This document shows positions 121-8,934 of a DNA stretch of 9,343 nucleotides, piece after piece. The translations under genes and the position numbers were made by a program. Location: the NCBI GenBank assembly GCA_031278025.1, contig JAITLF010000035.1, positions 1-9,343 on the forward strand, in the 5' to 3' direction. Position 1 is the stretch's first letter; each line of letters starts with the position of its first letter. The notes under the pieces are model-generated. The model did not search any database, had not been told where the DNA came from, and saw nothing but the letters and a program-made list of their open reading frames with translations. The stretch comes from Treponema sp. (lineage in GTDB: Bacteria > Spirochaetota > Spirochaetia > Treponematales > Breznakiellaceae).

Positions 121-883
121 CTGATACCGCCCCACCGGTTATAGTGCGAACCCTTTCTGGGAGGGGCCGCGATATTTTTCGCTACGGAACCGTCAAAGGT
201 TGAGATCATCAATGATACCAACGGAGAACTCATCAACTTTTATGAAGTACTCCAGCGGGATTTTACAGCCCGGGAGAAGGAAGTGGCTATAAGCCTTCAC
301 AGCCGGAAATAATACCGGCAGGCTGAGGTCATCTCGGTAGTTATGGCAAGAAGCTGGCTAACAAAAGAGCCGCCTTCAATAGTGATTACGCCCTCCGGCT
401 CCAAAAGGTTCAGATCGGGTGCTGCGATGCCCTCAGGATCATCAAAAGCCGGGACATGCCGGATGCGTTCTTCTATCTTGATCCGCCCTATGTGGGAGCG
501 GCTCAGGGCCATTATGACGGATATACCCAGGAGGACTTCGATATTCTGTTGAAGCTTCTGGAGAGCCTCAAGGGAAAGTTCCTGCTGAGTTCATATCGGA
601 ACAAGAAGGTGATCCACAAAGTATGATACGTAATTCATTGTACTACAAAGAATTAACGACATTTTTTCATCATACTTTGTGGATCACCACCCGGAATAAA
701 TCTCTGGCGGATTTTACCGAGGGGAACGGCTGGCAAACAATAGAGTTTGCCATGTCTTCCCCTATGACGCATGGACATAAAACCCAAGGGAGAAAAGTCG
801 AAGTGTTGACGGGTAACTATCCTATAGCGGTAAAGCCGGGGGCCAAGAGCGGGAAGGGACAGGTGAGCGGAGAGGAGGGATAG
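103..883 (+). pseudogene. Broken D12-class (Dam-like) adenine-specific DNA methyltransferase
   Basis: The intact family transfers a methyl group from S-adenosylmethionine to N6 of adenine. Motif I-like EPFLGGAAIFF is encoded at 148-180, INDTNGELINFYEVLQRDF lies just after it, and the catalytic DPPY motif is at 480-491 within AFFYLDPPYVGAAQGHYDGY. The C-terminal part (from about 692) includes NGWQTIEFAMSSPMTHGHKT and VEVLTGNYPI. The gene is clearly dead. About 20-30 residues including the usual GGK segment seem missing after MRSPWG. TAG at 142-144 and TAA at 310-312 interrupt frame 1. Reading moves to frame 3 near 334-342 with an apparent internal deletion. An inverted-repeat element at about 606-691 then shifts the tail to frame 2, which ends at TAG 881-883. 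Such orphan methylases are typical cargo of prophages. Identification is by motif recognition, not by a search. Confidence 0.9.
606..691. mobile_element. MITE-like inverted-repeat element, copy 1
   Basis: A perfect 20-base inverted repeat (608-627, GGTGATCCACAAAGTATGAT, against 669-688) encloses an AT-rich 41-base centre with no coding capacity. It interrupts the methyltransferase remnant. CGGAACAAG at 597-605 and CGGAATAAA at 692-700 flank it and both encode Arg-Asn-Lys, as expected of a 9-base target duplication that has since diverged at two positions. Removing one flank plus the insert (95 bases) restores the frame across the junction. The arms match those of the element at 7254-7364 at 17 of 20 positions. 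The left arm stops the interrupted frame with GTA-TGA at 621-626. No transposase is present, so mobilisation would be in trans. Confidence 0.75.
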
Positions 884-886
884 AGG

Positions 887-910
887 AAAGGCGGGATGAG
901 GCCCGCCTTT
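887..910 (+). terminator. Stem-loop after the methyltransferase remnant
   Basis: AAAGGCGGG (887-895) pairs perfectly with CCCGCCTTT (902-910) across a six-base loop, starting four bases after the TAG of the remnant. The T run is only three bases, so it is a weak or relic intrinsic terminator; the outer A/T pairs would let it act in either direction. Confidence 0.5.
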
Positions 911-943
911 AACGGCGTTTTAAGGCGGTTTTAAGCGGTAACA

Positions 944-991
944 AATTCCTATTTTCAGTGCAAATCTGGCGTTATGGAATTCCTATTTTCA
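944..991 (+). repeat. 14-base direct repeat with 34-base period
   Basis: AATTCCTATTTTCA occurs at 944-957 and again at 978-991. It sits in the non-coding stretch between the terminator-like hairpin and the GC-rich repeats. The preceding bases (914-934) also show a short tandem of GGCGTTTTAA and GGCGGTTTTAA. No function is evident. Confidence 0.6.
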
Positions 992-1029
992 ACGCTACGT
1001 TACAACCCTGCGGGTTTCTTCCTGCTCCC

Positions 1030-1162
1030 TGCGGGGCTCTGCCCCGCACCCCGCCGGGGGACCAGGAGCGGAGCCCCGCCGAGTCCGGGCAGCGCCCCGC
1101 CGGGACCGGGCGGAGTCCCGCAGGGTCTGGGCGGCGCCCTGCGGGGACCGGGCAGTGTCCGG
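1030..1162. repeat. GC-rich hairpin followed by 21-base tandem repeats
   Basis: TGCGGGGC (1030-1037) and GCCCCGCA (1041-1048) form a perfect eight-pair stem with a TCT loop. Imperfect 21-base units follow at 1066-1086, 1087-1107, 1108-1128, 1129-1149 and a partial one at 1150-1162. They start GGGCGG or GGGCAG in most units and have CCCGC in the middle. The 21-base period gives open frames with seven-residue repeats such as RPAGTGR, which I regard as a by-product. The block abuts the stop codon of the minus-strand TPR lipoprotein gene and may form strong structure in its 3' end, but no T run for an intrinsic terminator is seen. Confidence 0.8.
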
Positions 1163-1163
1163 C

Positions 1164-2921
1164 TTAGTATCCGCCGCCTAAGAGGGAGGAGTATTCGGCG
1201 GCGTAGCGTCTAAGCTGGGGGTTGTCCGGGGCAAGGGCAAGGGCTTGTTTCAGGTAGAATACCGCCCGGCTGTCGTCTTTGCGGCGGCGGTAGATTTCAA
1301 ACATGGCGGTTAGGGCGGAAAGATTGCGGGGGTCCTCGAACAGGCTGGAGCGGAGGTCGTTCATCGTCGCATCCTCGTTGGTCCGCAGGCGGCTGCGAAG
1401 GTAGTAATACCGACCCTTAAGGGCACCGCCGGGCAGGGTCGAAAGGCGGCCCTCTATCAGCCGGACGGCTTCGTCGTTACGGCCCGTGTCGATGAGGGCG
1501 GTAATGTAGGCGTTTATCCCCTCTTCGGCGGCGGTGTCCCGCTCGTAGAGTTCCCGCGCGGCCTGGAGCGCCGCGGAATTGTTGCCCAGTCCCCGTTCAA
1601 CCGTGTAGGCGCTCAGGAGATCCTGGGGCGACCGCCGTTCCACAAGAAGACGGTCCAGGAAGGAGCGAGCCTCGCTCCAGGCTTCCCGGTCTATGGCATC
1701 CTGAAGGGCCAGATTCACCACCAATAGGGAAGGGTCCCCGGCGGCCAGCAGGCGGTTCAGGAGTTCCCGGCCTTCGCGCCGGTCTTCGGGTCGGGTGGAC
1801 TCCATGAGGAGCCGGGAGGCGTAGACTGCGGCTTCGTCATCCGTGGGATAGGTCCTGATGAGGGAACGCAGGTAGTTGAGGGCGGAATCCCGGTTGCGGT
1901 AGCCTTCGGCCTGGACGCGGGCCCGCAGAAAGAGGTAGAGCCGGTTATTAGGGTCCACGGCCCCTACCATGTCCAGGGGTGCCTGGGCCTGGAGGAATTG
2001 TCCCTGCTCTACCAAAACATGGGCCCGCATCAGGATGAACGCGCTGTCCCGACTGTCCCGCTGGAGAACTTCGGCGATAACCGGATCGGCCCGGGACCAG
2101 TCCTGGTTGTTATAGTACGCAACGGCTAGTTGGCGTTTTACGACCAGGTTGTCCGGATACTGAATAACCAGGTCTGAAAGCAGGCGTATGGCTTCCGGTC
2201 TTTTGCCCTGCCGCTCCAGGATCCGCGCCAGGCCCAGGACCGCCGGGTAGCAGTCCCGGGAAATGGCATAGGCCCGGTTGTACTCCTCCACCGCCGCGTT
2301 AAGGAGGCTGGAGCGCTCGTAGATAAGTCCCAGGAAGAAGGGGGCAAGGACGGAATTTTTGTTCAAATCCCTTGCCCGTATCAGGTCCGTCCGGGCTGCG
2401 TCCAGCTTTTCGGGGCGGGTTTCCCGGAGCAGGGCCAGGAAGGGAAGCGTATGTTCCAGGTAATCCTGAGAGTTCTGAGGGGCGTGGACGTAATTCCCCC
2501 GTTCCGTCTCCCGGAGTATGCGGGTATAGGCGTGGGCTGCGGGAGGGGCTGGCGTGGGATACTGGGTTTGCAGGGAGGGATAGAGCTTTTGGAGCAGGGT
2601 TACGGCAACGGCGTTCATGAGCCGGCCGAATTCGGACTCCCTTAGGTTCCGATCCCCAATCAGTGTGAGGGCTTTGAGCAGGGACGGGTAAGAGCCGTTC
2701 TCGACCAGGGTGCGGAGCTCCTCGGCTATGCCCCCCCCAACGCGGGAGGGGGGCTGATTGTCAGGAACTACGGGAACGGGGTTTAAGGGGACCTCCTGGA
2801 CCTGGGGCCTGGTTCCGCAGGAAAAAACAAACCCGCAAAAGAGGAACAGGTAAAAGATACGTATGCCGGATACCAGGGGATCGGGAAGAAGGCGGCGGCG
2901 ATCTTCCGTAATACGACTCAC
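1164..2921 (-). CDS. Large TPR-repeat lipoprotein
   Basis: The product is 585 residues. The start is GTG at 2921, which overlaps the stop of the upstream membrane-protein gene as GTGA and has a GAGG element about ten bases ahead of it. A basic N-terminus is followed by a hydrophobic stretch (about 20-34) and a spirochaete-type lipobox FVFSC with Cys35, so the mature protein should be lipid-anchored in the periplasm. Residues about 36-65 are a Pro-rich linker. From about 190 to the C-terminus there are successive helical TPR-like units, for example LAPFFLGLIYERSSLLNAA, YPAVLGLARILERQGKRPEA and AVFYLKQALALAPDNPQL. TPR lipoproteins usually act as scaffolds for envelope complexes; the partner is unknown here. 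A run of eight Gs in the coding strand (2731-2738), near residue 63, could be slippage-prone. The role is inferred only from architecture. Confidence 0.9.
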   Translation of the reverse strand: MSRITEDRRRLLPDPLVSGIRIFYLFLFCGFVFSCGTRPQVQEVPLNPVPVVPDNQPPSRVGGGIAEELRTLVENGSYPSLLKALTLIGDRNLRESEFGRLMNAVAVTLLQKLYPSLQTQYPTPAPPAAHAYTRILRETERGNYVHAPQNSQDYLEHTLPFLALLRETRPEKLDAARTDLIRARDLNKNSVLAPFFLGLIYERSSLLNAAVEEYNRAYAISRDCYPAVLGLARILERQGKRPEAIRLLSDLVIQYPDNLVVKRQLAVAYYNNQDWSRADPVIAEVLQRDSRDSAFILMRAHVLVEQGQFLQAQAPLDMVGAVDPNNRLYLFLRARVQAEGYRNRDSALNYLRSLIRTYPTDDEAAVYASRLLMESTRPEDRREGRELLNRLLAAGDPSLLVVNLALQDAIDREAWSEARSFLDRLLVERRSPQDLLSAYTVERGLGNNSAALQAARELYERDTAAEEGINAYITALIDTGRNDEAVRLIEGRLSTLPGGALKGRYYYLRSRLRTNEDATMNDLRSSLFEDPRNLSALTAMFEIYRRRKDDSRAVFYLKQALALAPDNPQLRRYAAEYSSLLGGGY

Positions 2922-3478
2922 GGTCTCGTGTCCTCAGATTTTCCTTTAGTTCCCAGGGAAATTAAAACCAGAATAAGACCGGCAAGTACCAGCAGGAGGG
3001 GCCATCGGTCCAGCATGAATTGCTTGAAGGAAAAGGACACCACATCCAGGGAAAAGATCAATAATACGCAGCCTAAAATAATGAACGCCAGAGAGGGAAC
3101 CACATACCAGGGCCGGATCTTTCCATAATGGCGCCAGCCTGCGGGGATCAGGGCAAGGCCGGCAAAGACCGACAGGATAGGCCACCAGTTTGTAAAGACC
3201 AGGGGCAGTATCTTCAAAGCGGACAGGAAAAGAAAGAATCCCACCTGTAAAAAAAAAGTAGCAAGGAAAAGGTAGTGGGAACGTTTGTTGAATTTTACCG
3301 CTAAAAACGCGCAGCCTGAACCAATAATAACAAAAACAAAGGAACCCAAAACGGATACCTCGGATGTTTCAGCCAAGCTACCCAAAAGAAACGCGCAGCC
3401 TAAAAGCATGAATAAGAGGCCGAAGATAAAAATGAGCCGTGCGGTTATCTTTTGAATCCTAATACGATGCATACTCAT
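2918..3478 (-). CDS. Small multi-pass inner-membrane protein of unknown function
   Basis: The product is 186 residues with about six hydrophobic segments: roughly residues 12-33, 44-62, 68-89, 94-113, 122-143 and 157-176. Short basic loops such as KFNKRSH and GWRHYGKIRP separate them, and the tail GTKGKSEDTRP is charged. No catalytic motif is visible and I do not recognise a named family; the repeated pattern of short Trp-containing loops before hydrophobic segments (NWWPILSVFAGL, DRWPLLLVLAGL) recalls LiaF-type DUF5668 membrane segments. Start is ATG at 3478, with a second in-frame ATG at 3472; neither has a Shine-Dalgarno sequence, and the predicted promoter would leave a leader of only about five bases. 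A nine-T run in the coding strand (3249-3257) is a possible frameshift hotspot. It heads a two-gene operon with the TPR lipoprotein. Confidence 0.8.
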   Translation of the reverse strand: MSMHRIRIQKITARLIFIFGLLFMLLGCAFLLGSLAETSEVSVLGSFVFVIIGSGCAFLAVKFNKRSHYLFLATFFLQVGFFLFLSALKILPLVFTNWWPILSVFAGLALIPAGWRHYGKIRPWYVVPSLAFIILGCVLLIFSLDVVSFSFKQFMLDRWPLLLVLAGLILVLISLGTKGKSEDTRP

Positions 3479-3481
3479 AAT
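3452..3481 (+). promoter_or_regulatory. Candidate sigma-70 type promoter for the rightward envelope operon
   Basis: TTGAAT (3452-3457) and CATAAT (3476-3481) are spaced by 18 bases, matching consensus at 4 of 6 and 5 of 6 positions. It overlaps the first codons of the divergent membrane-protein gene. Transcription would begin near 3488 and include the hairpin at 3506-3527 in the leader. Confidence 0.35.
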
Positions 3482-3489
3482 ATACCGTT

Positions 3490-3519
3490 AATATACCGCG
3501 CCGGGGCTTCCCTTGCCAA
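3490..3519 (-). promoter_or_regulatory. Candidate sigma-70 type promoter for the leftward operon
   Basis: On the minus strand TTGGCA (3519-3514) and TATATT (3495-3490) are spaced by 18 bases, each 5 of 6 to consensus. The predicted start near 3483 is only about five bases ahead of the ATG at 3478, implying a leaderless or near-leaderless message. The decamer TAATATACCG is repeated at 3478-3487 and 3489-3498, one helical turn apart, and could be an operator or a duplicated -10 region. Confidence 0.45.
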
Positions 3520-3527
3520 TGGGAAGC
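3506..3527 (+). other. Stem-loop in the leader of the rightward operon
   Basis: GCTTCCC (3506-3512) pairs with GGGAAGC (3521-3527) across an eight-base loop. The loop contains in-frame TTG (3513) and ATG (3519) codons, which argues against using them as starts of the downstream lipoprotein and favours ATG 3543. No T run follows, so it is not an obvious terminator. Confidence 0.5.
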
Positions 3528-3542
3528 CTCCATGATAGAATA

Positions 3543-4664
3543 ATGTCGGTGAAAATTTGTTTATCTGCAGTGGCTGCATCGAATTTCTTAATAATCCTGT
3601 ACATTGGGGTATTTTTTTCCGGCTGCGAGAACGGGGGGACGGTCCTCGGTGGCGGTGTTTCAGAGGAGCGGGGAATATTTTCTCCCTCCGATTCGTATTA
3701 CATAACCGGCGATAAGAATCAGCAGGAAACTTTTCAAGACCTTTTCACGCTCCTGGAAATTGACGGACAGACCGACCTGGACCAATTCCCCGTGGTCCAG
3801 GAAATCGCCAGGGAATATGTCCGGGAAAAGGAATATGGCCGGCTCATCAATTTCCTCAATTCATGGATCGCGGAATACCCGGAAGATTCCTATACCGCCT
3901 ATTACTTCTTCATGATCGCCTTCGCGTATGTTCAGCAGGAAGCCTACCCGGTGGCGGCCATATACTTCGACATCATCATAAAAAACCACCCGGATCTTAT
4001 TGTTCGGGGCGAATCAATTCATTTTATCGCACTAAACCAGCTTATTTCCCTGGTAACCAACCCGGAACAACTGATTGGGTATTACCAGGCGCTGATCTCC
4101 CGGTTTCCCGACAAGATGGATTTGGGTCTTGCCTACTTCATGTTGGGCCGGGCGTATGAACAGACCGGCGACTGGAACGGCGCCATCCAAGCCTACGCCA
4201 AATTCCTCCCCTATTACGGCACCGTGATTCCCGGCTTTCCCGATGCCTACACCTATGCAAAACAGCTTGTTGATTTCAACAAGTCTCCCAAGGATTGGAC
4301 TTTTGAAAATCTGAACATCCTGCTTGGCGCCATCAGAGCCGCGCTGGATACGGGAAACAGCGTCCGGCTCAGGCAGTTCCGGGCAAAGGTGAACTTCTTT
4401 GCCCGCTCCTGGGAGCAGGAAGACGAAGATAACGCGGGCATGGCGGAATTCAACTTTTCGGATTTTATGCGGGGGAACCGCATCCGTTACGCGGCGCAGT
4501 TGGATTCCGAATCCAACGCCAATGAAGCCTTCCTGCGTACCTGGGGTTGGTCCCAGTATCTTTCGGTCTGGTACTTTTATTTTAGGAAGATATATTTCCC
4601 CCCGGACCCGGAGATTCACGGTCGCTGGGAATGGGCGGGGATTTATTATGGGGAGAAATTTTGA
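3543..4664 (+). CDS. Helical-repeat (TPR-like) lipoprotein
   Basis: The product is 373 residues from ATG 3543, chosen because earlier in-frame starts (TTG 3513, ATG 3519) lie in a hairpin loop; GTG 3549 is another candidate, and none has a good ribosome site. A hydrophobic N-terminus ends in a lipobox FFSGC (Cys28), predicting a lipid-anchored periplasmic or outer-membrane protein. Residues about 90-230 form paired amphipathic helices typical of TPR or BamD/YbgF-like modules, for example EYGRLINFLNSWIAEYPED, YPVAAIYFDIIIKNHPD and LGRAYEQTGDWNGAIQAYAK. The C-terminal third is rich in aromatic residues (TWGWSQYLSVWYFYF) and has no recognised domain. It is translationally coupled (TGATG) to the lytic transglycosylase gene, so it may be a partner or localiser of that enzyme. 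That role is inference. Confidence 0.88.
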   Translation: MSVKICLSAVAASNFLIILYIGVFFSGCENGGTVLGGGVSEERGIFSPSDSYYITGDKNQQETFQDLFTLLEIDGQTDLDQFPVVQEIAREYVREKEYGRLINFLNSWIAEYPEDSYTAYYFFMIAFAYVQQEAYPVAAIYFDIIIKNHPDLIVRGESIHFIALNQLISLVTNPEQLIGYYQALISRFPDKMDLGLAYFMLGRAYEQTGDWNGAIQAYAKFLPYYGTVIPGFPDAYTYAKQLVDFNKSPKDWTFENLNILLGAIRAALDTGNSVRLRQFRAKVNFFARSWEQEDEDNAGMAEFNFSDFMRGNRIRYAAQLDSESNANEAFLRTWGWSQYLSVWYFYFRKIYFPPDPEIHGRWEWAGIYYGEKF

Positions 4665-6238
4665 TGAATCCTTTGAGACTGTTCCAAAAACACCATCAAC
4701 TCGTTAGTGAGGAGGAAGCTGCGGACGTGTTTCGCATGTCCGGCCCCTCGCTCCGGCCCTTCGGCCCCCCGTTGCCCTTTCTCCGGGGTTTGTTTGACCG
4801 CGATACTGGTCAACCTTGCCCCCGTAACGTCCCTGCCGGGGTTTTGGAACCGCCTCTTTTATCGGGGAAGTTGAAACAAATTGCCGTTGCCGCAGCCGTT
4901 TTGCTGGCGGTAAACACGGTTTGGGGAGCGGAACAGATGGTATCCGGGCAGTCGATACGGGAGACAGCGGTGGAGGCGATGCCGGTCAACGGGGAGGCTC
5001 CGGATCCGGGGCGGCCCTTACGGCAGGTAATGCCGTTGGAGGAGGACGCGGTGGAACGACTGCCTGTAGGGGTCTTCTCCGGAATGGCCCTGGCCCCGGT
5101 GATACCGGGGTTGGAACATCCCCTTACCCAGCGGTATATCAGCCACTACACCAGCCCCGGCGGTCTTTCCTGGCTTAAACAGGCCATGGCACGGGGAGAA
5201 CCCTATCTGGCCTTCATACGCCGGGAAATTGAGGAGCGGGAATTGCCGCCGGAACTGCTGTACCTGCCGGTGATCGAGTCCGCCTTCCTGTCCACGGCCA
5301 AAAGCGCCTCCGGGGCTGTGGGGCTTTGGCAGTTCATGAAGAACAGCATAACCCCCTTTGACATGAAGGTTACTGAATGGATGGACGAGCGGATGGATTT
5401 CTGGAAGTCCACCCAGGGCGCCCTCAGCAAGCTACAGGACAATTTCAAGCAGCTTCAGGACTGGCCCCTGGCATTAGCGGCTTACAACGCGGGACTGGGG
5501 GCGGTCAACCGGACCATCAGCCGGACGGGAATTAAAGATTACTGGGAACTTTCAGACAAAAAGCACTTTAAGAGTGAAACCGTACACTTTGTCCCCAAAC
5601 TTCTGGCGGTGGCGGCTATCGTTTCCGACCCCCGGCGTTACGGCCTTGATGCCCTGTGGCCGGAGGACCCCCAATGGACGCGGGTTCCCGTGGGGCGCCC
5701 GGCGGACCTGGAAATCCTGGCGGAAGCGGCGGGGATAGACGGGGAAGTCCTTAAGGCGGCCAACCGGGAGCTTTATTACGGCGTTACCCCTCCCGGCAGC
5801 GGGTATTCCCTGAAGGTACGGGCCGCCGATGAGGCCGCCGTACGGGAGGTCCTAGATCAGACGGAGATACCACTTATCTTGTATCACTACCATACCATTC
5901 AATCCGGCAACACTCTTTCGGAACTGGCCCAGCATTACGGGGTCTCCGTAGCTCAGATCACCGAGGCCAATCCGGGCATACGGGCGCGGTTCCTGCGTAT
6001 AGGACAGCGTATACGTATACCCGCCGTCAGGGATGTCCGTCCCTATATGCAGGCCGGCGCTTCCAAGCGGACGGACGCCGCCGATTTTACGGGAACTCAT
6101 CTGGTAAAGCAGGGAGAAACCCTCTGGTCCATAGCCCTGGCCTATGACGTGGACCCCGAAGCCCTGGCAGCCGCCAACGGCATAAGCATGGAGGCTACCT
6201 TGCGGGTAGGAAAAACCCTAAAAACGCCGGTAAAATAA
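4664..6238 (+). CDS. MltD-like membrane-bound lytic transglycosylase with two LysM domains
   Basis: The enzyme family cleaves the MurNAc-GlcNAc bond of peptidoglycan to form 1,6-anhydro ends. Start ATG 4664 overlaps the upstream TGA as TGATG and has GGGGAG eight bases ahead. The product is 524 residues. Residues 70-88 (LKQIAVAAAVLLAVNTVWG) are a signal peptide or anchor. The SLT domain spans about 158-330, with YLPVIESAF containing the expected catalytic Glu205, then SGAVGLWQFM, MDERMDFWKST and WPLALAAYNAGLGAVN, all family hallmarks. LysM domains lie at about 409-453 (HTIQSGNTLSELAQHYGVS) and 478-522 (HLVKQGETLWSIALAYDVD) and should bind peptidoglycan. The first 69 residues are an unusual Pro/Gly/Arg-rich cytoplasmic tail from a GC-rich stretch; TTG 4871, directly before the signal segment, could be an alternative or ancestral start. 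Domain identification is strong; the exact N-terminus is not. Confidence 0.93.
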   Translation: MNPLRLFQKHHQLVSEEEAADVFRMSGPSLRPFGPPLPFLRGLFDRDTGQPCPRNVPAGVLEPPLLSGKLKQIAVAAAVLLAVNTVWGAEQMVSGQSIRETAVEAMPVNGEAPDPGRPLRQVMPLEEDAVERLPVGVFSGMALAPVIPGLEHPLTQRYISHYTSPGGLSWLKQAMARGEPYLAFIRREIEERELPPELLYLPVIESAFLSTAKSASGAVGLWQFMKNSITPFDMKVTEWMDERMDFWKSTQGALSKLQDNFKQLQDWPLALAAYNAGLGAVNRTISRTGIKDYWELSDKKHFKSETVHFVPKLLAVAAIVSDPRRYGLDALWPEDPQWTRVPVGRPADLEILAEAAGIDGEVLKAANRELYYGVTPPGSGYSLKVRAADEAAVREVLDQTEIPLILYHYHTIQSGNTLSELAQHYGVSVAQITEANPGIRARFLRIGQRIRIPAVRDVRPYMQAGASKRTDAADFTGTHLVKQGETLWSIALAYDVDPEALAAANGISMEATLRVGKTLKTPVK

Positions 6239-6262
6239 CGGGGGAATAAAGGTACGCAGGAC

Positions 6263-7147
6263 ATGAAGAAAGGCTGTATTACAGGGATATTGGTTTGGAT
6301 AACCGTAGCGGTTACCGGGCAGACGAAGATTGATATTTCCGGGATGATCGAGTGGGAGCGGATGGAACTAAACGCCACGGTAACGCTAAATCTGGCTTCC
6401 GCGGGGATTAAGCTTCCTGCGGGACGGTCCCAGGCGGAAGAGATCATCAACATTGAATACATCAACCTCATACTGCCCTATATTTCGGCCATTCCCATAG
6501 ACTCTTCGGATACTATAGAAGATTTGATAAACCGGGGCGAATTCTCCCTTCGCCTTCCGTCTTTTATCGCCGATACCGCCCGGAAGATTCCTCCTGCCTT
6601 ATCCGCTGACCTTACCGCCCTTTCCGCTGCGTATACCATAGACCTTAGGAACATCAGTTCCCGGATTATCAGGCACAGCCGGGCCATGGAACTGCCGAGG
6701 CCCCTTACCCCCGTTCCGGCGGCGGAATACTCAGGGGTCATCATCATCGCAAGCGAAGAGATGCCCGTCCACGGCGGGAACCACGCCGCCCTGGTAGAAC
6801 CCTGCATCTTCCCCAAGGTGTGGGACACGAATATGAACCTCATTTACAACCGGAATATCCTTGACCCGAATAGGAGCGAAAAAATCGCGCCGGTCATGTA
6901 CGTGTCCGAATCCAACATTTTCCGCCCCACCCCTTCGGGGTTAAGTCCGGAACTGGTGGAGCTGGTGGGAACCAACCCCCTGCGTATCATAGCCCGCGGC
7001 GTCTTCGGCGCCCGGCCTACGGACCCTGTCATAGACCGTGAGGACGCCCTGATCATCCTCTCCTCGGAGGCCAACCGCCGGCTCCTGCGGGAAGGCCGGG
7101 TTGCCTTTGCGCTGCATGAAAAAACCTTGAAAAATCCCCTTAAATAA
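6263..7147 (+). CDS. Exported protein with LPP20/FlgP-like sequence pattern
   Basis: The product is 294 residues. ATG 6263 follows the transglycosylase stop by 24 bases, with AAAGG and AGGA elements upstream. MKKGCITGILVWITVAVTGQ is a signal peptide without a lipobox cysteine at its end. Residues 155-198 (EYSGVIIIA, PCIFPKVWDTNMNLIYNRN) resemble the segment 'GLIIDARG..PA..PKI.D.DG..VYG' that I recall from LPP20/FlgP-like surface and flagellar proteins. Residues 211-283 (VMYVSES, TNPLRIIARGVFG, TDPVIDREDALIILSSEANRRLL, RVAFAL) follow the same family's layout of a conserved tail. In those families the proteins act at the outer membrane or around the flagellar motor. Here the assignment rests on memory of the pattern and needs a profile search. 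As third gene of the run it is probably co-transcribed with the transglycosylase. Confidence 0.8.
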   Translation: MKKGCITGILVWITVAVTGQTKIDISGMIEWERMELNATVTLNLASAGIKLPAGRSQAEEIINIEYINLILPYISAIPIDSSDTIEDLINRGEFSLRLPSFIADTARKIPPALSADLTALSAAYTIDLRNISSRIIRHSRAMELPRPLTPVPAAEYSGVIIIASEEMPVHGGNHAALVEPCIFPKVWDTNMNLIYNRNILDPNRSEKIAPVMYVSESNIFRPTPSGLSPELVELVGTNPLRIIARGVFGARPTDPVIDREDALIILSSEANRRLLREGRVAFALHEKTLKNPLK

Positions 7148-7151
7148 CCCT

Positions 7152-7174
7152 CCCCCCACCATTTTTATGGGGGG
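7152..7174 (+). terminator. C6/G6 stem-loop after the rightward operon
   Basis: CCCCCC (7152-7157) pairs with GGGGGG (7169-7174) five bases after the stop codon of the exported protein gene. A second short hairpin, GGGG-TTCGAAA-CCCC (7171-7185), overlaps the right arm. No T run follows, so termination efficiency is uncertain, but position and stem strength fit an operon end. Confidence 0.45.
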
Positions 7175-7253
7175 TTCGAAACCCCAGGGTCGCCGCCCAT
7201 GTTTGGCATAATTCCAGGAAACCTCTCTTTCCTCACGGGAACCGCTCTTTTTT

Positions 7254-7364
7254 GGGTGGTGATGCAGAACGTATGATAAAAACGGAACTATCACCTCCAT
7301 CCTGGTATTCTTTTTTATCGACTATGGCCATGTGGGACTTATCATACTTTCCGCATCACCACCC
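7254..7364. mobile_element. MITE-like inverted-repeat element, copy 2
   Basis: The outer 26 bases at each end (7254-7279 and 7339-7364) are inverted repeats matching at 24 of 26 positions, starting GGGTGGTGATGC and ending GTATGATAA. The 59-base centre is non-coding and unlike that of copy 1. The inner 20 bases of each arm match the arm of copy 1 at 17 of 20 positions. The flanks are T-rich on both sides, so no clear target duplication can be read. Its right arm forms the last codons and stop of the DUF4105 gene. As RNA the element would be a long hairpin between two convergent genes and may also help terminate both. Confidence 0.75.
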
Positions 7365-8691
7365 TTTTGCGATATACGGTCGTCAAAGCCAGGGCCGCCG
7401 CGATGGGCAGTATAAGCGCCAGGTCCACCTGGTTCTGCTGGTAAAACCGGGGGAGCATCTTTATCACCATAGTGAGGACGCCGCCGAAGAATACGTACAT
7501 CCAGAGTATCCTGAGGAGGCTGCCGGGGAAGTCCTGAGCGAAACGGCCTGACCGGGAACCCCTCTTTCGCTTGCCGCAGCCCCTGGCCATCATAACGCCC
7601 AGGGGAACCGCCGCCAAAAGCAGGGGGTTGACGTAGATAAGATTACTGTTGTGATAGGTGTAATCGTGGTTCGTGAAGAAGGCCATAAAAAAGAGGAGCG
7701 TACCGGCTGCGCCGAAAAAGAGGCCGAAGAGCGCGTGGGAGACGCCCAGAAGGATGCGGCCAGCCACGGGCCGTTTGCGGCGGATACGGGCAAAGACGCA
7801 TAAAAGGAGGGCTGCGGCAAGACCCGCGGCAAGTTCCCTGGGCCACTGCCTGCGGGGGACCGCCAGAACCGGGGGGCGATCTGCCGCCCTGTTCACGGCT
7901 TCCAGGGAACTTACAAGGGGCCGTTCCCTGCCTTCAGGATCGGTATAGGCAAAATCCCGGATGCAATCCCCTATTTTTTGCGGCAGGAACATTTCCTGCC
8001 ACACGGTGATGGGAACGTCTATGTCCTGGCCCATCCAGAAGTTGAGTATCCAGTCATAGAAGGGAGAAGACCAAAGGTGCCGCCTGACATGCTGCCGAAA
8101 GGTATACCGGCCCGGGGCCCCGCCGAATGCGGTACGGAACTGGCCGTCTGTGGCAATGTCCAGAATGTCCCGTACTCTGGTGGCGCAATTATCCTTAAAG
8201 TGGTGGTAGTAATAGTTCCGGTTTTCCGGAAGGATGTTCCATTCTGCGAAACGGCGTATTTCCTCTTTCTTTTGAGCCGGCAGGTCCAGGGTATACACGG
8301 TGATGTCCCGGTTGGTGTTGCGGTAGGCCCGAAATACCGAATCCGCGGGGGATGCGGCGCACCGGTAAAGGAGCCGGCCAAAGGCGAAATTCACAAAAAA
8401 GCGCTCGGCATCAAAGGAGAAGACGCCCCAGTCATAGAAACGGCTCTGCCCGGTAAGGGCGTCATCAATAACCAGGGCAATATGTCCCCATCGGAAGTAA
8501 AGCTGGTCCCCCGGTCCCATGACGGCGATCTTAACCGTAAGGTAGCCGCCCCGGTCCCCGGATCCGCCGGTCTGGGAAGGGGCGGACGTACCGGCGGACG
8601 CACCGGCGGGAAAAAGAGAAGCCAGGAGGAACACGGCGCTTAGGGCGGCGGCCTTTCGCGCAGGCGGGCGCGGCAGCAGGCGATTCTTCAT
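7342..8691 (-). CDS. DUF4105 (Lnb N-terminal periplasmic domain) protein with multi-pass membrane tail
   Basis: The product is 449 residues from ATG 8691 (MKNR). An upstream in-frame ATG at 8706 would add five residues, but the predicted promoter overlaps it; neither has a normal ribosome site. Residues about 1-33 are a signal peptide ending in AGASA. The periplasmic domain spans about 50-270 and shows the DUF4105 hallmarks WGHIAL (His70) and YYYHHFKDNCATRVRDILD (Cys169). DUF4105 is thought to have a papain/NlpC-like fold, so these are likely catalytic. Four hydrophobic segments follow at about 286-302, 314-340, 355-368 and 392-412, with another at 421-440; NHDYTYHNSNLIYVNPLLL between them is typical of the family. 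The last residues (VVMRKV) and TGA come from the inverted-repeat element. The natural substrate is unknown; action on peptidoglycan or envelope proteins is a guess from the domain and the neighbouring lytic transglycosylase. Confidence 0.9.
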   Translation of the reverse strand: MKNRLLPRPPARKAAALSAVFLLASLFPAGASAGTSAPSQTGGSGDRGGYLTVKIAVMGPGDQLYFRWGHIALVIDDALTGQSRFYDWGVFSFDAERFFVNFAFGRLLYRCAASPADSVFRAYRNTNRDITVYTLDLPAQKKEEIRRFAEWNILPENRNYYYHHFKDNCATRVRDILDIATDGQFRTAFGGAPGRYTFRQHVRRHLWSSPFYDWILNFWMGQDIDVPITVWQEMFLPQKIGDCIRDFAYTDPEGRERPLVSSLEAVNRAADRPPVLAVPRRQWPRELAAGLAAALLLCVFARIRRKRPVAGRILLGVSHALFGLFFGAAGTLLFFMAFFTNHDYTYHNSNLIYVNPLLLAAVPLGVMMARGCGKRKRGSRSGRFAQDFPGSLLRILWMYVFFGGVLTMVIKMLPRFYQQNQVDLALILPIAAALALTTVYRKRVVMRKV

Positions 8692-8697
8692 CCCGCC

Positions 8698-8726
8698 ATT
8701 TTGCATGATACCGGGGCGTATGACAA
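8698..8726 (-). promoter_or_regulatory. Candidate promoter for the DUF4105 gene
   Basis: On the minus strand TTGTCA (8726-8721, 5 of 6 to consensus) and CAAAAT (8703-8698, 4 of 6) are spaced by 17 bases. Transcription would begin at about 8691, on the ATG chosen as start, again implying a leaderless message. The -10 match is weak. Confidence 0.3.
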
Positions 8727-8741
8727 TCCGGCCCTAATTTC

Positions 8742-8793
8742 CCCCCAGGGCGAGCGCATTAAACATTCTTAGGGAACAGCCGCCACAGGTTCC
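8742..8793 (-). repeat. Dispersed repeat, copy 2
   Basis: This is the reverse complement of the repeat at 69-120, 41 of 52 identical and 27 of 28 in the core (8742-8769). A stop codon (TAA) occupies the same place as the TGA of copy 1, 9 bases before the shared ATG. In another frame both copies encode LR(I/M)FNALALG, with the Leu codon changed silently (TTG versus CTA). The copy sits just upstream of the DUF4105 promoter. Confidence 0.7.
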
Positions 8794-8814: not shown

Positions 8815-8913
8815 AGCTGACGGCGGCGGGGCCTGCGGCGTGCAAAACCGGGTTTTTGCGTTGCACAAACCCGGGTCCGGCAACACCGGAGCCCCGGCGG
8901 GGGTATTCTTTTT

Positions 8914-8934
8914 TTTATGCGCTCGCCCTGAGGG
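8914..8934 (+). repeat. Dispersed repeat, copy 3 (core only)
   Basis: This matches the core of copy 1 (100-120) at 19 of 21 positions, including an exact ATGCGCTCGCCCTG at 8917-8930, and is preceded by a run of eight Ts. It is inverted relative to copy 2, so the two bracket about 190 bases (8742-8934). In the methyltransferase-like frame it hits a TGA at 8929-8931. Confidence 0.65.

Follow-up and report, generated by a model that had tools for sequence, protein, structure and literature searches.

The window, a 9,343-nucleotide stretch of treponeme DNA, contains two short inverted-repeat elements that are almost certainly miniature, non-autonomous derivatives of the IS1 family (ISAba3-like), presumably inserted in trans. 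By sequence comparison, the ends of both elements are IS1-family (ISAba3-like) terminal inverted repeats. A sequence-only reading of the window had described the two as non-autonomous inverted-repeat elements of the MITE type, with conserved ends and variable centres, and this description was borne out. The same reading had not recognised the ends, which can now be assigned to IS1, and had taken the elements for two copies of one family, which they are not: element 2 is an IS1 with internal deletions, and element 1 is part of a MITE lineage of its own, with nothing but the IS1-type ends in common with element 2.

The gene content of the window, judged by protein relatives, is that of a termite-gut treponeme and comprises two TPR proteins, a LysM lytic transglycosylase, a DUF4105/Lnb_N protein and a partial D12 adenine methylase. 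Its closest relative, the best among 80 of the 148 confirmed loci in genome_contigs, is the Treponema MAG contig Cc175_bin43 (L086, genome G001), with which window positions 1162-7148 and 7366-8731 are colinear at about 92% nucleotide identity. The alignment is absent just before position 1162, and positions 1005-1163 are GC-rich, with four copies spaced 21 bp and inverted repeats. The last ~60 bases of the relative's contig form a long single-base run that is likely an assembly artefact. The window also holds a second dispersed repeat, TTTAATGCGCTCGCCCTG and variants, at 99-119, 8743-8763 and 8913-8933; it was present at 18 places in 5 of the 11 relatives' genomes searched (at most one mismatch; 0 places for the reversed pattern). 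Positions 69-120 and 8742-8793 form an inverted pair of 52 nt that is 79% complementary.

With up to 3 mismatches allowed, the window contains the arm pattern GGTGGTGATNNNNNNNGTATGAT four times, where shuffled sequences lead one to expect 0.03 occurrences. The two inverted-repeat elements with shared arms are real, as had been claimed; the inner arms are alike at 17 of 20 positions, each element-2 arm showing 3 mismatches to the element-1 arm over the 20-base inner arm. Complementarity between the two arms is 100% over 20 bases for the inner arms of element 1 and 92% over 26 bases for the arms of element 2. When folded, both elements beat every one of 200 shuffles on both strands (z of -8.0/-8.6 for element 1 and -5.0/-6.0 for element 2). 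The longest open stretches inside the two elements are 29 and 36 codons, and so neither has a transposase gene of its own. Element limits were fixed by copies in relatives that carry perfect 8-bp duplications; the limits first proposed, 606-691 and 7254-7364, were right to one base and are replaced by those in Table 1.

Table 1. Positions of the two elements, their parts and the neighbouring genes (window coordinates unless a locus is named).
Feature	Position	Strand	Basis or remark
Element 1, 87-bp IS1-end MITE (GAAGGTGATCC...GGATCACCACC)	605..691		arms, fold, relatives' copies
Element 1 left terminal inverted repeat	605..627	+	2 mismatches to GGTGGTGATN7GTATGAT
Element 1 right terminal inverted repeat	669..691	-	0 mismatches to GGTGGTGATN7GTATGAT
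Element 1 left target-site duplication CGGAACAA	597..604		flank comparison, homologues
Element 1 right target-site duplication CGGAATAA	692..699		7/8 identical to left
Internal palindrome TAATTCATTGTACTACAAAGAATTA, 25 bp, inside element 1	631..655		sequence; also outside MITEs in relatives
D12 N6-adenine methyltransferase, piece before element 1	456..604	+	PF02086, tblastn
Methyltransferase remainder after element 1, starting with duplicated RN codons	692..883	+	tblastn
Element 2, 109-bp IS1 with two internal deletions	7255..7363		alignment to L306
Element 2 left IS1 end	7255..7280	+	L306 left end, alignment 30/36, E 6e-7
Element 2 internal IS1 segment	7281..7301	+	L306 element 203-223, 19/21, E 6e-4
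Element 2 right IS1 end, last transposase codons	7298..7363	+	L306 element 724-789, 61/66 (92%), E 1e-20
Element 2 possible left target duplication CTTTTTTG	7247..7254		6/8 match, weak
Element 2 possible right target duplication CTTTTGCG	7364..7371		6/8 match to left, weak
DUF4105/Lnb_N gene	7342..8706	-	last codons supplied by element 2
Arms GGTGGTGATN7GTATGAT	605-627, 669-691, 7255-7277, 7341-7363		pattern search
Palindrome sites	window 631-655; L319 135-159; L366 and L371 at 1501-1525		

The sequence-only reading pictured elements mobilised in trans by a transposase whose gene would lie between the same terminal repeats. Relatives have such genes: in L260, L306, L210 and L235 an IS1 transposase gene is flanked on both sides by these arms. 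L260 is a complete IS1 copy of 797 bp with one 233-aa ORF, the same ends and a perfect 8-bp duplication (CCGTAAAG). Its transposase matches NF033558, 'IS1 family transposase', with 188.8 bits (cut-off 100) and PF03400 with 88.3 (cut-off 24.1), and the zinc-ribbon PF03811 reaches 21.7 bits, under the cut-off of 26.1. Full IS1 copies in relatives (L260, L306, L210 and others) measure 0.77-0.83 kb and have a transposase gene that is whole or decayed. Shorter pieces next to arms include an IS1 transposase N-terminus (L193; InsA zinc ribbon, PF03811) and a C-terminus (L191; PF03400); a third, from L194, matched no Pfam family. In G001, the loci L176 and L182 each hold the right end of an IS1, bearing the same arm and truncated where the contig stops; the encoded transposase C-termini finish roughly 8 bp away from the arm and are 86-87% identical to that of L260 over 29-30 aa. 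The L260 transposase was matched in 33 of the 60 loci scanned, of which 23 have the arm, some of these being the same place twice. The 10 matching loci without the arm show identities of only 24-48%, indicating that other IS1 groups or fragments are also present. At L171, an ORF at 2092-2448 (- strand), which we take to resemble an IS30-type transposase, is found some 600 bases away from an arm of the IS1 type and is perhaps a nested or neighbouring insertion.

Among plasmid records, the best matches to the L260 transposase are Acinetobacter IS1 transposases, at 62% identity. An IS1 copy from an A. pittii plasmid has GGTGGTGTTTCAAAAAGTATGCTG at both ends, which differs from the treponeme arm at 4 of 24 positions; the short flanks of the fetched copy, when compared, did not match each other. 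In a published account of ISAba3-like IS1 elements (PMC6382973), two copies with the same terminal repeat bound a composite transposon with 8-bp duplications, and their end, GGTGGTGTTTCAAAAAGTATGCTG, agrees with the window's GGTGGTGATCTACAAAGTATGCTG at 20 of 24 positions. ISAba3-like elements are autonomous, whereas the two elements in the window have no transposase gene. The IS1 copies of termite-gut treponemes (L260, L306, L210) likewise have the same ends as the window's elements, and 8-bp duplications in several cases, but differ from them in having a transposase gene.

The target-site duplication of IS1 is usually 8-9 bp. We compared the flanks of 43 arm pairs within 1 kb in the fetched loci, with identical pairs removed and the window's two included; pairs more than 1 kb apart or without 8 flanking bases were dropped, uncounted. 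The 8-bp flanks at the expected boundary were alike at 7 or 8 positions in 10 of the 43 pairs, six of them perfectly. By contrast, 5000 shufflings of the right flanks gave a mean of 0.47 pairs alike at 7-8 positions, with a maximum of 5, and a mean of 0.14 perfect pairs. Fewer than 6 of the 8 flank bases match in 29 of the 43 pairs, and shuffling yields a mean of 1.9 of 43 pairs with 6 or more matches. The pairs without a duplication could result from mis-joined repeats in MAGs, age or recombination.

Element 2 was matched at all in 8 of 195 genomes. Its reference, L306, is a 789-bp IS1 from G029 that is flanked by a perfect duplication (AATTTCCG) and has a transposase apparently split over two frames. 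The left, middle and right parts of element 2 align in order to L306, and element 2 is thus an IS1 with two internal deletions. The L086 locus is without element 2; the right junction alone aligns there, with no clean empty site. The encoded DUF4105 protein ends in YRKRVVMRKV* in the window, its last residues coming from element 2, versus YRKD* in L086. The initial view that one copy lies in a dead gene and the other between genes holds for the first copy and needs correcting for the second, since element 2 is not wholly intergenic and runs into the DUF4105 (Lnb_N) gene at its 3' end.

Element 1 appears to have broken a D12 adenine methylase gene, which is now dead. The piece before the element matches PF02086 with E 2.5e-4 and 21.3 bits, just under the 22-bit cut-off. 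We compared both pieces by tblastn with 12 methylase loci from 12 of the 195 genomes, which are homologues and may differ in locus; the first piece matches 8 of the 12 and the second 9. Both pieces are matched at 8 of these loci, all without the insert, and at 6 of the 12 the pieces overlap in frame at the RN codons, which are single there and duplicated in the window. At L355 and L356 the two matches are separated by 41 and 14 bases and are not in frame with each other; this leaves no room for the element, but these two genes may not be whole. Homologous sites without an insert were found for both elements, although the one for element 2 is not a clean empty site.

The closest counterpart of element 1 is an 87-bp copy at another site, in G004 (L339), that is identical to it at 76 of 87 positions; its flanks differ from those of element 1 and match each other at 2 of 8 positions, with no visible duplication. 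Related MITEs of 238-249 bp occur in G001, G004 and G135. Compared with these MITEs, element 1 agrees at 43-45 of its first 51 bases (left end) and at 52-55 of its last 61 (right end). In the 248-bp MITE of G001 the outer palindromes start at 27 and 188, 161 apart, with a third between them. As 248 minus 161 is 87, a deletion between repeated palindromes explains both the length and the sequence of element 1, which fits a 248-bp MITE that would have lost the 161 bp between two 25-bp palindrome copies. The interior of element 1 showed no match to full IS1 copies beyond the ends.

Evidence on copy number and dispersal comes from the genomes of relatives, which carry many arms that are not confined to the positions seen in the window, as expected if the elements move. 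A loose arm search of relatives turned up a near match lying not far from the end of L120. With two mismatches allowed, we found 28 arms in G002, the genome of L120 (reversed pattern, 1), and 11 in G001, the genome of L086 (reversed pattern, 4); G003, one of three genus genomes searched, gave no arms and no IS1 match. The stricter 20-base arm is present in 54 of the 195 family genomes, with 0 matches to the reversed pattern. Several arms in relatives sit some 95-119 bases from the point at which a contig stops, repeats being places at which assemblies break. Related MITEs or MITE ends occupy several sites each in G038, G001 and G004. Two MITEs on different contigs of G038 (L222 and L290) are 94.7% identical, and L290 is flanked by a perfect 8-bp duplication. 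The exact two-arm pattern at a window-like length had no match in genome_contigs or viral_contigs; this search was strict, as the arms of the 87-bp copy in G004 are mutated and most elements exceed the allowed gap. A one-arm pattern matched 85 viral stretches, which by our own estimate is near chance for 15 fixed bases.

Both copies might have an IS1 origin and yet be fossils that are immobile in this host, a possibility that we take seriously without favouring it. It is consistent with the drifted flanks (7/8 for element 1 and 6/8 for element 2), with the two deviating positions in the left outer arm of element 1 and with the several relatives' IS1 copies that are partial or bear stops. However, element 1 retains two perfect 20-bp inner arms, and relatives have intact IS1 copies with perfect duplications.

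Conserved terminators or regulatory sites, as opposed to mobile DNA, would also present as strong hairpins such as those at both elements, and element 2 does lie between convergent genes. Yet neither hairpin is among the 18 terminator-like sites listed, which combine a GC-rich stem, a short loop and a T-run, and the same arms terminate full IS1 copies with 8-bp duplications. Relatives gave no support for a conserved terminator or regulatory site at orthologous positions, their arms being many and not confined to such places, and the sole Rfam match was mir-142 (E 0.21, 24.7 bits versus a cut-off of 57). Given the terminator scan, the absence of element 2 from L086 and the frame that element 1 interrupts and that continues in 6 of the 12 homologous loci, we rejected this explanation, which is highly improbable. 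REP-like palindromes, whose single-stranded hairpins would be handled by a REP-associated transposase (RAYT/IS200-type), would likewise be short, palindromic and dispersed, and the internal palindrome does occur outside MITEs. This origin, too, is highly improbable and was rejected on the 8-bp target duplications, which REP-type elements are not known to produce, and it sits poorly with IS1 transposase genes within the same arms.

In the preferred reading of miniature IS1 derivatives, the arms would be bound in trans by an IS1 transposase encoded at another place in the genome, which would insert the elements through an 8-bp staggered cut. One such insertion would have entered the D12 adenine methylase gene and broken it, and another would have taken place at the 3' end of the DUF4105 gene. 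Element 2 is an IS1 from which two deletions have removed most of the transposase gene, and element 1 would derive from a 248-bp MITE through loss of the part between repeated palindromes.

Comparable elements are known from other hosts. MITEAba12 and the Sulfolobus elements SMN1 and SM3A, as described in two reports (PMC6382973, PMC3718332), are likewise short, have terminal inverted and direct repeats and are mobilised in trans. Hosts and partner elements differ from those considered here, the Sulfolobus partners being ISC1733 and ISC1058 (PMC3718332). Rickettsia palindromic elements and REP sequences, according to a further report (PMC10969869), are similarly small palindromes in and between genes. 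Unlike these, the outer arms in the window are IS ends with target duplications, and only the inner 25-bp palindrome is REP-like. Among the papers listed by literature searches, none was seen from its title or abstract start to treat IS1-derived MITEs in spirochetes.

The inner palindrome has a distribution of its own. Allowing up to 2 mismatches, TAATTCNTTNTANTANAANGAATTA has 2-23 sites per genome in the 8 genomes tested, 114 in total, with 0 matches to the reversed pattern. Some of these sites belong to IS1-end MITEs, which carry between one and three copies each, and others stand alone. We inspected 23 palindrome loci, 15 from G139 and 8 chosen from other genomes, and found 5 inside an ORF of at least 90 aa and 18 outside. 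Ten hand-picked palindrome neighbours were scanned; DnaA is among them and 3 of the 10 had no Pfam match. One palindrome copy is upstream of dnaA, and in L366 and L371 the palindrome lies between divergent LacI and ABC-permease genes. A speculative and rather unlikely proposal is that the lineage of element 1 disperses a 25-bp palindrome that has a function. If the palindrome were a protein-binding site or a structural hairpin, IS1 transposase would carry operator-like sites to new places in treponeme genomes, and the length of an element would be reset whenever a deletion occurred between its palindromes.

The elements belong to a known kind and leave the general picture unchanged. For termite-gut spirochetes, they define an IS1/MITE system that includes autonomous and miniature forms as well as deletion intermediates and 8-bp duplications, and in which one miniature element lies inside a DNA adenine methylase gene. 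This system is useful for annotation and is a case of MITEs arising from an IS by stepwise deletion.
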